Source: SAR202 cluster bacterium bin87 (GTDB lineage: Bacteria; Chloroflexota; Dehalococcoidia; Lucifugimonadales; UBA3495). Taken from it: a stretch of DNA of 64,000 nucleotides. The position numbers and the translations under genes were made by a program. The notes under the pieces are model-generated. The model made no database searches, was not told where the DNA came from, and was given only the letters and a program-made list of their open reading frames with translations. Every line of letters begins with the position of its first letter. The stretch's first letter is position 1. Positions 945 to 5,588 of this stretch are shown one piece after another. Where the stretch lies: positions 178,635-242,634 of the forward strand of contig MPNC01000006.1 in assembly GCA_002238825.1 (NCBI GenBank), given 5' to 3'.

Positions 945-1397
945 TCAGCCCGGCTCGACCCACTGCCAGAAGGATACGCCCCCCGTGTATTGCGCCGGCA
1001 GCAGTTCCCACAGGATGTCCAACAGCGGGCGAACGTCCTCCAGGGCATATCGGGCGCGTTCCACGTTCATATAGACTTCGTAGAAATTGCCATGCAAACC
1101 CTCCGCGGCGCGAAGGCCCCGGTCAATCGTCAGGGACTGTTCGGGCAGCTCTGCCATCAAGCCTGTGATCGAGTCCCGGATGGCCTCGTGATCATAGTGC
1201 TCCCAGCTGCGAAGGGTTGCTACGGCCTTGGTCAACTGCGCGACCGTGCCCCAGCCCTTTTCACCGGCCTGGCAGTAGTCGCCCTCCGCCAAGTGCGCCG
1301 GCCACTTGGACCAGTAATCGCGGGCCTGCTCCAAGTGCTTGGCAATGCGGGCATCGCGCCGGGCCGGGGTTTCCGGGCGTCGTATCCGCGGTGGCAT
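945..1397 (-). CDS. Small helical protein, possibly PaREP1/HEPN-like
   Basis: Internal ATG at 1397 gives MPPRIRRPETPARRDARIAKHLEQARDYWSKWPAHLAEGDYCQAGEKGWGTVAQLTKAVA; the LEQA..Y...A...L..GDY.QAGEK.WG pattern resembles PaREP1-type proteins. Confidence 0.55.
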   Translation of the reverse strand: MPPRIRRPETPARRDARIAKHLEQARDYWSKWPAHLAEGDYCQAGEKGWGTVAQLTKAVATLRSWEHYDHEAIRDSITGLMAELPEQSLTIDRGLRAAEGLHGNFYEVYMNVERARYALEDVRPLLDILWELLPAQYTGGVSFWQWVEPG

Positions 1398-1408
1398 GGT
1401 TGGCTCTC

Positions 1409-2626
1409 CTACTGCAATACGGCCGCGAGGTCGGGATGCAGGGCGCTCTCCTGCTTCTGGATGCCGACGTAGTGCAGCCGGGTCAGGTACTGGCGCACGT
1501 AGTAAGTGCGCAGGTTGTTGACCGCAGTCATGCCCTCGGTCATGCCCGCAACCGAGCCTCCGGCGATGATGGCCATGGCCTCCCACAGCACCGGGTCCTT
1601 CATCTCGCCGGCCATGTCCTTCTCGATGGAGCCCAGGATCCGGCGCAGTGACACGCCGAAGTCGACGCCTTTCACCGCCACCGTCAGCTTGAGCATGGCC
1701 ATTCCGTAGGCCATGTGCCGGGCCTTGTCCTGCAGGCTCAGGCCGAACAGTCTGCGATCAACGGCGTTGGTCGCGTAGTGCATCCCGAACCGGTACAGCA
1801 GCATCGTCATTGTGCCGCGCGCGAGGTACAGCGACACGGCGACCTCCGGCCAACCGGCCCGGGTTTCCAACATGCGCCGGCTCATCATGCCCGGCGATTC
1901 CAGGCCCAACGCGCCTCCGTTGCACAGGGCGCGGTGCCGCATCGCCTCGAAATGGCGCGCCGCGTCGAACTCCTGGGTGGCCAGGAACATCTTGGGCTCG
2001 ATGTAGGCGTAGTTCATCCGATGTAGCCACAGGCCGATGGTGTCGATCTCGGCGGTGGCGTGCTGCCCCAGTTCGGTGCACAGCTGGCACCAGGCCAGTT
2101 CCAGGGTCTCCGGCTGGTCCGGAATATCGGACCACGGAATGTCCTGCATGGCGTTCCAGCGGCGCTGGATCGCTTCCTCGTACAGCCACGCTGCGTTGTC
2201 CGACCACAACTCGTCCTTGCGGTTCACCGAGTAGTTGTCCAGACGGGGTATCCCCGGTGTGGCAAAGGACCCGCGGGGCATCCGTGTCATTTCGCGGCTT
2301 TCCTCCGGGATCTCGCCGTACAGGCCTACGTTGATCCCATCAATGGTCAGCCCGTGGGGCGTCAGCGGCGCCCGGGTCCCCCACTGGCGGGTGTCCTTCA
2401 TCCAGGGGAACCGCTCGGTCGGGGGTGGAGGAGCCTCAGGCTCGGCAGTCGACTCAACGGGCTCGTCTGCCGGAGTCTCCGAGTCTGCGCTGTCTGCTAC
2501 GTTCTGCTGGACGCGCTCCGCTGCGGAGGAGCGGTAGTTCCCGGTGGGGTTGCTGTCATCGACGGGCCCTGCCGGGTCGCTGCCGTTCTGCGGATCATTC
2601 TGTGTGGTCATGATGCTTCCCCCCAA
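1409..2626 (-). CDS. Ferritin-like/R2-like diiron-fold paralogue, ligands degenerate
   Basis: 405 aa; collinear similarity to the neighbouring 365-aa ORF, but DESRH is DAARH and DEARH is DKARH. Confidence 0.75.
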   Translation of the reverse strand: MGGSIMTTQNDPQNGSDPAGPVDDSNPTGNYRSSAAERVQQNVADSADSETPADEPVESTAEPEAPPPPTERFPWMKDTRQWGTRAPLTPHGLTIDGINVGLYGEIPEESREMTRMPRGSFATPGIPRLDNYSVNRKDELWSDNAAWLYEEAIQRRWNAMQDIPWSDIPDQPETLELAWCQLCTELGQHATAEIDTIGLWLHRMNYAYIEPKMFLATQEFDAARHFEAMRHRALCNGGALGLESPGMMSRRMLETRAGWPEVAVSLYLARGTMTMLLYRFGMHYATNAVDRRLFGLSLQDKARHMAYGMAMLKLTVAVKGVDFGVSLRRILGSIEKDMAGEMKDPVLWEAMAIIAGGSVAGMTEGMTAVNNLRTYYVRQYLTRLHYVGIQKQESALHPDLAAVLQ

Positions 2627-2692
2627 TGGAAGACGGCCCGCCGACCTCAGGACGACGGGCCGTCGGCATTTCCGTGCCGATTGTCGAGCGGG

Positions 2693-3790
2693 TTACGCAG
2701 CTGCCTGGTAGACCTCCAGCAGCGCCGGGTTGACGCGCCCGTTCTCGATGCGGTCGTCGAAGCCGCAGGACTTGAGCCGCTGGAAGTATTCCTTCACCTG
2801 ACGCTGGCGGATGGCCGCGAGGATCTTCTGGCCCTCTTCGGCCTTGTCCGCGCCGCCACCCAGCAGGATGGCCAGCGACTCGGCGGTCAGGTTGGCGCTC
2901 CGGGCTGCCGGGTTCTCGCCGCCGTTGCCGGTGGCCTGCCGGTCCTCGGCCTCGTCCAGGTAGGCGTGGATCTCTTCGCGCCGCTCCGGCGTGCACTCGT
3001 TCATGTACCGGGCGTGCAGCACGCCGAAGGCCACGTGACGCGCCTCGTCCTGCGCGGCTCGCCGGTAGATGGCCTTCTCAGCGTCGTTGTACGCCATCAG
3101 CTCGCCGAGGCGGAACAGCGTCAGCACGTTGCCCTCGCCCACGATGTGCAGACGGCTGGACATTTCAGTGAACTCGCGGGCGTTGTCGGTGCTGCCGCCG
3201 GTGACGTCGCTCACCGAGTCGATCATCCGCATCAGACCGCCACCGTTGGCCAGCGCGCGCTTGCGGAACACTTCCATGTGGCGCGACTCGTCCATCACCT
3301 GCGTGAGCAGGAACATTCGCACCTCGTGGTAGTCCGGCGACATCTGCGAAATGAACCGGCCCGGCACGTCAGCCGCGACGAACTCTACCTGCGCGAAGAA
3401 GGTGGCCAGCTGGCACTGGGCGGCCTCGATGTCATCGGGCAGCGGGCGCAGGGTATCCCACGGAATGTCGGTGGCAGATGACCACTGGCGCGAGACGGCT
3501 TCCTGGTACAGCTTGGTCAGATTGAAACCCCAGACTTCCTTCTTGTCGCGGAAGGTGTATGCGGAGAACTGCGGCACGCCCTCACGGGGAATGGCCCCGC
3601 GTGTCCGCTGGGTCTGGTTGGGCGACTCGTCCAGCAGGTCGGGGGTGTATTGAGCCAGGGTGGGGTCGTGCGCCAACTCTTCCTCGGCGCCGGGGACCTG
3701 GTCCTTGATTTGCTGGAGCCACGACAGGCTGAAGCCGTTCTGCAGCGCCTGTTCCATCTCGACAGTGGTGCGGTCTTGCAAAGTAGCCAT
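2693..3790 (-). CDS. Ferritin-like/R2-like diiron protein with intact ExxH motifs
   Basis: 365 aa; two motifs TQVMDESRHMEVF and AAQDEARHVAFG typical of a diiron four-helix bundle. Confidence 0.8.
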   Translation of the reverse strand: MATLQDRTTVEMEQALQNGFSLSWLQQIKDQVPGAEEELAHDPTLAQYTPDLLDESPNQTQRTRGAIPREGVPQFSAYTFRDKKEVWGFNLTKLYQEAVSRQWSSATDIPWDTLRPLPDDIEAAQCQLATFFAQVEFVAADVPGRFISQMSPDYHEVRMFLLTQVMDESRHMEVFRKRALANGGGLMRMIDSVSDVTGGSTDNAREFTEMSSRLHIVGEGNVLTLFRLGELMAYNDAEKAIYRRAAQDEARHVAFGVLHARYMNECTPERREEIHAYLDEAEDRQATGNGGENPAARSANLTAESLAILLGGGADKAEEGQKILAAIRQRQVKEYFQRLKSCGFDDRIENGRVNPALLEVYQAAA

Positions 3791-3959: not shown

Positions 3960-4862
3960 ATGGCAGTAGGTAACGCGAATCAGTTCGGAGGAACTTGGAC
4001 TCAGGATAAGCTGCAGCTCCTGCGAGGATATCTCGAACGGTATACCACCGCTTTGAAACGGCAGCATTTCAATCTAGTGTATGTCGACGCTTTTGCGGGC
4101 ACAGGTTACGTCGATATCGGATCTCAGGCCGATTCGCAAGAAGTCCCGCTTTTGGTTGCAGAGGTGGACGTTGATACTGCGGGAATGCTGAAAGGATCTA
4201 CGCGATTGGCACTCGAGGTTGATGACCGTCCGTTCGACCAGTTTGTGTTTGTGGAACAGAACCCAGCGTACGCCGCCGAGCTTCAATTCCTACAATCGGA
4301 ATTCCCCGACCGGGATATACAGGTCCAAACTGCGGACGCAAACGTATTTTTGCCTGCATGGTGCGATAGGCAAAACAGTAACCTCGGTGTACCTTGGAGC
4401 CGCCAACGTGCAGTCATTTTTCTGGACCCGTTTGCTACAGAGGTTGACTGGAACACTGTTTGGTCGATAGCCGAAACCAAATCGGTTGATCTATGGATTT
4501 TGTTCCCTCTTTCCGCTCTGACCAGAATAATGCCCACGGAGCGACAGCCTGACGAAGAATGGGCTGCTGTCTTGGACAGGGTTTTTGGAGGTCCAGAATG
4601 GCGCGATGCTCTCTATAGCACGCAAGTCCAGCCTACTCTGTTCGGCGAAGATCAGATACTGACGGTACGTAGTGATCAGCAAGCGATTGTGGACGCCTAT
4701 CTTGCCAAGCTCAGGACTGTTTTCGAAGCGGTAGCGCCCACGCCTCGGTGGTTTTTGAACTCTCGGAAATCGCCGCAGTTTGCTCTTATGTTCGCAGCTT
4801 CAAACCCTGCCGGCGCTCCTATCGCGGTGAGGATTGCAGATCACCTGTTGAGAAACTGGTAA
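3960..4862 (+). CDS. tcmP: Three-Cys-motif partner protein (TcmP-like)
   Basis: 300 aa; KLQLLRGYLERYTTALKRQHFNLVYVDAFAGTGYVDI plus adjacency to the three-Cys-motif protein. Confidence 0.8.
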   Translation: MAVGNANQFGGTWTQDKLQLLRGYLERYTTALKRQHFNLVYVDAFAGTGYVDIGSQADSQEVPLLVAEVDVDTAGMLKGSTRLALEVDDRPFDQFVFVEQNPAYAAELQFLQSEFPDRDIQVQTADANVFLPAWCDRQNSNLGVPWSRQRAVIFLDPFATEVDWNTVWSIAETKSVDLWILFPLSALTRIMPTERQPDEEWAAVLDRVFGGPEWRDALYSTQVQPTLFGEDQILTVRSDQQAIVDAYLAKLRTVFEAVAPTPRWFLNSRKSPQFALMFAASNPAGAPIAVRIADHLLRNW

Positions 4863-4865
4863 CTC

Positions 4866-5588
4866 ATGGCCGCTTCCAAAATCGAATGGACCGACGCGAC
4901 CTGGAACCCGGTCACTGGCTGCAACAAGATCAGCCCGGGTTGCAAGCATTGCTACGCCGAGCGCCTTTCGAAGCGGCTCAAGGCCACCGGTATGGACAAG
5001 TACCGGAACGGCTTCGACGTGACCCTGCACCCGGACACGCTGGATATCCCGCTACGTTGGCGTAAGCCCCGTTCCATCTTCGTCAACTCCATGAGCGACC
5101 TCTTTCACGTCGACGTTCCTGACGATTTCATCGCTCAGGTTTTCGATGTCATGGTCCGCGCTGACTGGCACCGCTACCAGGTTCTCACCAAGCGCCCGGA
5201 ACGTGCGGCCAGTTTGAACCCGCAACTACCGTGGCCGGACCAGGTCTGGATGGGCGCCAGCGTGGAATCGCAGGACTACGCCCACCGGATTGACCTCCTC
5301 CGCGACACCGACGCGGCCATCAAATTCCTCTCGCTTGAACCATTGCTTGGCCCATTGCCCAACCTGAATCTCTCGGGCATCGATTGGGTGATCGTGGGCG
5401 GCGAATCTGGCCCGGGCGCACGTCCCATGGAGGGTGATTGGGCTCGTGACATTCGCGACCAGTGCCAGGCCGCCGGCGTGCCTTTCCACTTCAAACAATG
5501 GGGCGGCGTTTTCAAGAAACGCCACGGCCGCATACTGGACGGCAGGACCTGGGACGAAACGCCTGCGGACACCTTGGTAGGGTCATAG
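4866..5588 (+). CDS. DUF5131 / phage Gp37-Gp68 family three-Cys-motif protein
   Basis: [38 protein letters not shown]; starts 3 nt after the tcmP stop. Confidence 0.88.

Follow-up and report, generated by a model that had tools for sequence, protein, structure and literature searches.

An R2-type protein with a complete dimetal ligand set and its ligand-poor paralogue, conserved as neighbours in Chloroflexota, as the probable subunits of a heteromeric oxygenase

Two paralogous genes lie next to each other in the window, a 64,000-nucleotide stretch of the genome of the Chloroflexota member SAR202 cluster bacterium bin87, one encoding a protein with a complete R2-type dimetal ligand set (P0002) and the other a protein of the same predicted fold that has lost all the acidic ligands (P0001). 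The two appear to have been co-inherited since one ancient duplication, so that they most likely constitute one two-part enzyme. The explanation that we consider probable is a heteromeric dimetal-carboxylate oxygenase of the R2/R2lox/VlmB class, in which P0002 would be the metal-bearing subunit (alpha) and P0001 a pseudo-subunit (beta), assisted by an accessory protein of about 145 aa. In such an enzyme alpha would bind two metals (Fe2 or Mn/Fe) through E136, E168, H171, E219, E249 and H252 and would activate O2. Beta would have arisen from alpha by one ancient tandem duplication, giving up its own metal site, and would probably take the place of the second protomer in the ancestral R2-type homodimer, stabilising alpha and perhaps gating the access of substrate or electrons. 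In most lineages the empty site of beta has apparently been refilled by an ion pair, formed by a new Glu and a Lys or Arg standing where a ligand was lost, and the third protein would serve all the pairs of a genome.

On the minus strand the 365-aa gene lies upstream and the 405-aa ORF downstream (Table 1). The two products share 28% identity across 313 residues (E=3e-39). The downstream ORF opens with TTG and has an in-frame ATG five codons further on (MTTQND, at residue 6), so its product is probably 400 aa long. The sequence-only reading had described the longer protein as a paralogue in which the Glu of both ExxH motifs, the helix-1 Glu and the third-helix Glu are lost, while the histidines and the overall helices are kept, and the alignment bears this out in every particular: both ExxH Glu residues are replaced (E168 by A222, E249 by K301), the helix-1 Glu is aligned with an Ala (E136 with A190), the third-helix Glu with a Gly (E219 with G271), and both histidines are retained (H171 as H225, H252 as H304). 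As to the helices, AlphaFold2 models computed for the single chains with the alignment of relatives are confident R2-type bundles for both proteins (pLDDT 85.7 and pTM 0.79 for P0001; 84.0 and 0.81 for P0002).

Table 1. Positions, in the window, of the paired genes, of their spacer and of the codons at the lost ligand positions
Feature	Position	Strand	Description or basis
Active subunit P0002, 365 aa	2693..3790	-	Ferritin-like R2-type dimetal-carboxylate protein, ligands E136/E168/H171/E219/E249/H252
Pseudo-subunit ORF P0001	1409..2626	-	405 aa from TTG; probable ATG at 2611, giving 400 aa
Intergenic spacer	2612..2692	-	Strong 12-bp GC-rich hairpin, RNA MFE -43.5 kcal/mol, z -2.7
Pseudo A190 codon, replaces helix-1 Glu ligand E136	2057..2059	-	Alignment
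Pseudo E193 codon, pseudo-specific Glu one turn past lost ligand 1	2048..2050	-	Alignment
Pseudo A222 codon, replaces first ExxH Glu E168	1961..1963	-	Alignment
Pseudo G271 codon, replaces third-helix Glu E219	1814..1816	-	Alignment
Pseudo K301 codon, replaces second ExxH Glu E249	1724..1726	-	Alignment

The loss of ligands is a property of a whole family of proteins. The active members read EEHEEH at the six ligand positions in 60/60 well-aligned rows, whereas at ligand 1 of 50 ligand-poor paralogues A, G, S or Q is found (with one E), and none of them has E at ligand 2, 4 or 5. Their signatures are fixed within lineages and differ between them (AxHGKH, GAKKSH, ALHDR, xxHTLH, AYHTLQ, ADADKH, G-[AGS]-[ML]-D-[LI]-H and others). 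Since lineage-fixed signatures run through the 50 paralogues while the active proteins keep the set, the loss is not the decay of one genome; the A/K-type substitutions seen in the window are thus not local, and homologues of the longer protein that keep ExxH are not the rule. The D and R of both DExRH motifs are retained in 47-50 of the 50 pseudo members despite the missing Glu. The first His is not conserved among the pseudo lineages, being replaced by K, L, M, Q or A in 14/50.

Relatives were sought first in 60 related genomes and then in a phylum-wide sample of 400 Chloroflexota genomes. In the former, the two genes are neighbours in the same-genus matches and in many genomes of the same family; the latter added tandem members from other families of the class and, beyond the class, from a single family (f98). 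There are 47 adjacent pairs in Chloroflexota and in all of them (47/47) the active gene comes first, on the same strand as its partner. In a maximum-likelihood tree of 361 columns, built with the six ligand columns blanked, the pseudo members form a clade of 40 rows (100/99), sister to a clade of 41 active rows (99/98), and the two clades have matching internal groups in mirrored order. Topologies holding together the pseudo and active members of one lineage were rejected by the AU test, both for the window lineage (p 4e-6) and for another (3e-4). At the level of the tree, these results show that the pseudo clade in all likelihood goes back to one ancient duplication, with independent duplications rejected; long-branch attraction could inflate the apparent shared ancestry, an effect that the AU tests and the mirrored order speak against. 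An N-terminal motif that had been considered a derived trait of the pseudo clade was discarded as such, because active proteins of other families carry it too. The distances among pseudo members follow those among their active partners (mirror-tree r=0.96, with 0/2000 permutations as high), and both genes are under purifying selection (omega 0.09-0.19 for the pseudo gene, 0.04-0.06 for the active gene), the rate of the pseudo gene within the genus being roughly double that of the active gene. Three genomes in which the locus is split (L081/L083, L084/L087 and L088/L090) keep both members, in matching clades. One genome (G335) has an extra active gene (L085) with no partner detected nearby, which suggests that the active subunit may sometimes work alone. 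A further possible ligand-less partner (QYHNTH; L114:7222-8571, plus strand) adjoins an active gene and the third gene; it is placed, with uncertainty because its branch is long, apart from the main pseudo clade, and it may represent a second, independent loss of the ligands.

The proposal, made from the letters of the window, that the pair forms a heteromeric oxidase with a pseudo-subunit gains support from the pair order, the mirrored trees and the purifying selection, since an obligate heteromer predicts all three. Co-inheritance and adjacency could also be accounted for by a shared pathway, and they fit equally well a pseudo protein that is a separate regulator, chaperone or metal-insertion partner and sits on the active enzyme only transiently. 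Such a role has a precedent in yeast Rnr4, which is without the key diiron residues and may act as a chaperone beside its structural role (PMC3824934), and the faster evolution of the pseudo gene within the genus points the same way. In the pseudo protein, however, the fold is complete, with the two helices of every ligand pair present and the second-shell DxxR retained, and this better fits a permanent partner standing in for the second protomer; we regard the transient association as rather unlikely.

The emptied site itself has a recognisable pattern. Three residues after ligand 1, where 59/60 active proteins have Ala, a Glu is found in 38/50 pseudo members (E193 in the window), and the lineages with this new Glu have Lys or Arg at one former ligand (one ALHDR member has Ala). 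Where the same position is instead a Lys, ligand 4 is Asp, and the lineages that are neutral at this position have neutral former ligands too. This Glu/Lys covariation was spotted post hoc among related lineages and is treated as a lead only. Because the new Glu tracks Lys or Arg at the lost ligands, an ion pair is suggested rather than a metal, and, from the aligned residues, an ion pair or a neutral core seems to have taken the place of the metal site of the pseudo-subunits. The alignment lends no support to a rebuilt metal site and the Glu/Lys pattern argues against one, though in the window lineage a site of two His and one Glu may exist.

These residues also bear on the idea that the pseudo protein is itself catalytic, either through a metal-free radical, as in class Ie R2, or through a mononuclear site formed by E193, H225 and H304. 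Class Ie R2 proteins have three of their Glu ligands replaced, including by Lys in the QSK and VPK variants (PMC11846895); they are also among the top structural matches of P0001, and the Glu in 38/50 members could serve as a ligand of the mononuclear site. In 50/50 pseudo proteins, however, the column of the DOPA-forming Tyr holds F, M, L, W or C, the His pair is not conserved (the first His being replaced in 14/50), and the association of the new Glu with Lys or Arg suggests an ion pair, so that a catalytic pseudo protein is quite improbable. That the pseudo gene is a functionless, decaying duplicate, as the loss of all catalytic carboxylates might suggest, is refuted by its omega of 0.09-0.19, by open frames preserved across dozens of genomes and families and by its retention since the ancient duplication.

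In Foldseek searches the model of P0002 matched best R2lox (E=8.5e-5), ribonucleotide reductase (RNR) R2, VlmB, Protein 60 and the soluble methane monooxygenase (sMMO) hydroxylase (sMMOH), and that of P0001 matched best RNR R2 and R2lox, with class Ie R2 in the top set; the TM-scores are moderate, mostly 0.4-0.6. P0002 has both the R2-type four-helix fold and the E, ExxH, E, ExxH ligand series, P0001 the fold only. By sequence, P0002 scores 17.7 bits against the Pfam model Ribonuc_red_sm (PF00268; cut-off 33.6), which P0001 does not match, and 32.8 bits (4e-8) against the NCBIfam R2lox model (curated cut-off 194), so that it falls short of both thresholds; P0001 has no assignment in Pfam or NCBIfam. 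Among the PDB sequences the best match of P0002 is the VlmB homologue 6d9f (E=2.5e-4), with R2lox matched weakly. Membership of R2lox was rejected, as the positions of its Val-Tyr ether cross-link are A (59/60) and L or M (58/60) in the active proteins. Membership of the pseudo proteins in class Ie R2 was likewise rejected on the DOPA-forming Tyr column given above. With the cross-link residues and the DOPA Tyr both missing, ordinary membership of these two families is excluded. The position of the radical Tyr, seven residues after ligand 2, is Phe in 59/60 active proteins, which is compatible only with an R2c-like arrangement. The phenol hydroxylase model PF02332 found nothing in the window genome, its controls being equally silent, and a plasmid collection gave one distant Xenorhabdus ferritin-like match and nothing else.

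Among the closest known systems is that of yeast, where a metal-bearing R2 and a paralogue without the key diiron residues (Rnr2 and Rnr4) form a heterodimer (PMC3824934), a make-up like the one proposed here. Unlike Rnr2/Rnr4, the pair described here is bacterial, stems from its own duplication and co-occurs with a third protein, and it is not an RNR, P0002 scoring only 17.7 against the Ribonuc_red_sm cut-off of 33.6. In the hydroxylase of sMMO, likewise, a diiron alpha is joined to a beta that is its paralogue and has no diiron site, and sMMOH chains are matched by P0002 in Foldseek (E=7e-4), but there is no clear sequence relation and no reductase, MmoB or gamma genes were recognised near the pair. 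A conserved, paralogous, metal-less partner beside a metal subunit, as in Rnr2/Rnr4 and in MMOH alpha/beta, is what was found here; the pair resembles both systems and belongs to neither family. R2lox, the best structural match of P0002, is set apart by the wide distance to its curated cut-off and by its cross-link residues, and we know of no pseudo-subunit for it. The azoxy synthase VlmB and Protein 60 (8wvr, 6d9f) have the same ExxH ligand arrangement as P0002 (23% identity in the fold search) but are only distantly related to it, and to our knowledge neither has a paired ligand-less paralogue. Class Ie R2 resembles the pseudo protein in that Glu ligands of an R2 fold have given way to other residues, Lys among them (PMC11846895). 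The pseudo protein, by contrast, is without the DOPA-forming Tyr and has lost four carboxylates instead of three, and no R1 or NrdI context was seen adjoining the pair.

The third protein, of about 145 aa, has the motifs FPSxEWF ... HTLNTLDL ... FRxNQSLQxFFD and, in the majority of 20 loci drawn from several families, is encoded directly 3' of the pseudo gene; it has no match in Pfam or NCBIfam. In the window's genus its gene is unlinked to the pair (G000:C42:291682-292110), with no other pairs adjoining it. It is present in 19/19 genomes with a pair and absent from 20/21 pairless genomes (Fisher p=3e-10 overall and 4e-6 outside the genus, values that are indicative only, the genomes being related), and it is found in 15/15 of the more distant pair genomes. 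Genomes with outgroup members only are without it in 7/8 cases, the exception (G369) having the third gene together with solely an unpaired outgroup-type active gene (L107). A second genome (G008), whose assembly is 86% complete, has the third gene and no pair was seen in it. Nearly all pair genomes, including those with two or three pairs, have a single copy, so that the protein is probably a shared accessory; two copies are present in G413 and G040, in the latter adjacent to each other (L038:8986-9983). In that role it may be a substrate carrier, a coupling factor or an assembly factor. Its identification as an SCP2 sterol carrier was tried and rejected: PF02036 gave no match, a Thermus SCP2 was reached only at E=1.1, and the comparison with Chloroflexota SCP2 by hhalign (P=0.045, probability 1%) leaves a resemblance that is suggestive only in register. 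This third component and the depth of conservation of the pair go beyond the sequence-only reading. A wider proposal, to which we give slightly less than an even chance, is a three-component oxygenase with several alpha/pseudo-beta pairs per cell, each for a different substrate, with one shared accessory and with buried ion pairs repeatedly replacing the metal.

As to the reaction, it would be an oxidative one, and there is a hint of a hydrophobic substrate. Recurring neighbourhood clusters are mostly shadow ORFs of the pair itself and the true neighbours differ by lineage; in some lineages they are thiolase, short-chain dehydrogenase, CoA-transferase and luciferase-like monooxygenase genes. 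The hint comes from these neighbours and from R2lox, which binds a fatty acid (PMC6399176). If the substrates are lipophilic or recalcitrant, as the neighbours hint, the pair would be part of an unrecognised oxygenase system in the carbon degradation of Chloroflexota. Our literature search found no paper describing the pair; neither ferritin-like nor diiron proteins come up in the SAR202 pangenome paper. Few heteromers combining a live with a dead dimetal subunit are known to us, namely those of yeast RNR and of the sMMO-type monooxygenases. The bacterial family offers tens of natural pairs, with dead sites rebuilt in about ten ways from what would be one ancestor, and the role of a metal-free subunit thus becomes testable by comparison of lineages and by partner swaps.

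The spacer between the two genes has features of its own. Its hairpin (Table 1) might determine how much of each subunit is made relative to the other, or might terminate transcription weakly. Several close relatives have cargo inserted in this spacer, read by eye from the translations: a HigB/HigA-looking toxin-antitoxin pair in two loci (L023:4178-4998 and L033:4171-4995), an ORF that may encode a membrane protein in another (L032:4081-4893) and a PaREP1/HEPN-like gene in a fourth (L024:4544-5010). In the window, a divergent segment (3960-5588, plus strand) encodes the three-Cys-motif partner protein TcmP and a DUF5131 protein, the latter resembling radical SAM mobile pair protein A with a score below the cut-off. 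Directly 3' of the pair (945-1586, minus strand) lies a gene of the PaREP1/PaREP8 family (HEPN-like; Pfam PF05942), to whose product the protein encoded inside the pair at L024 looks similar.
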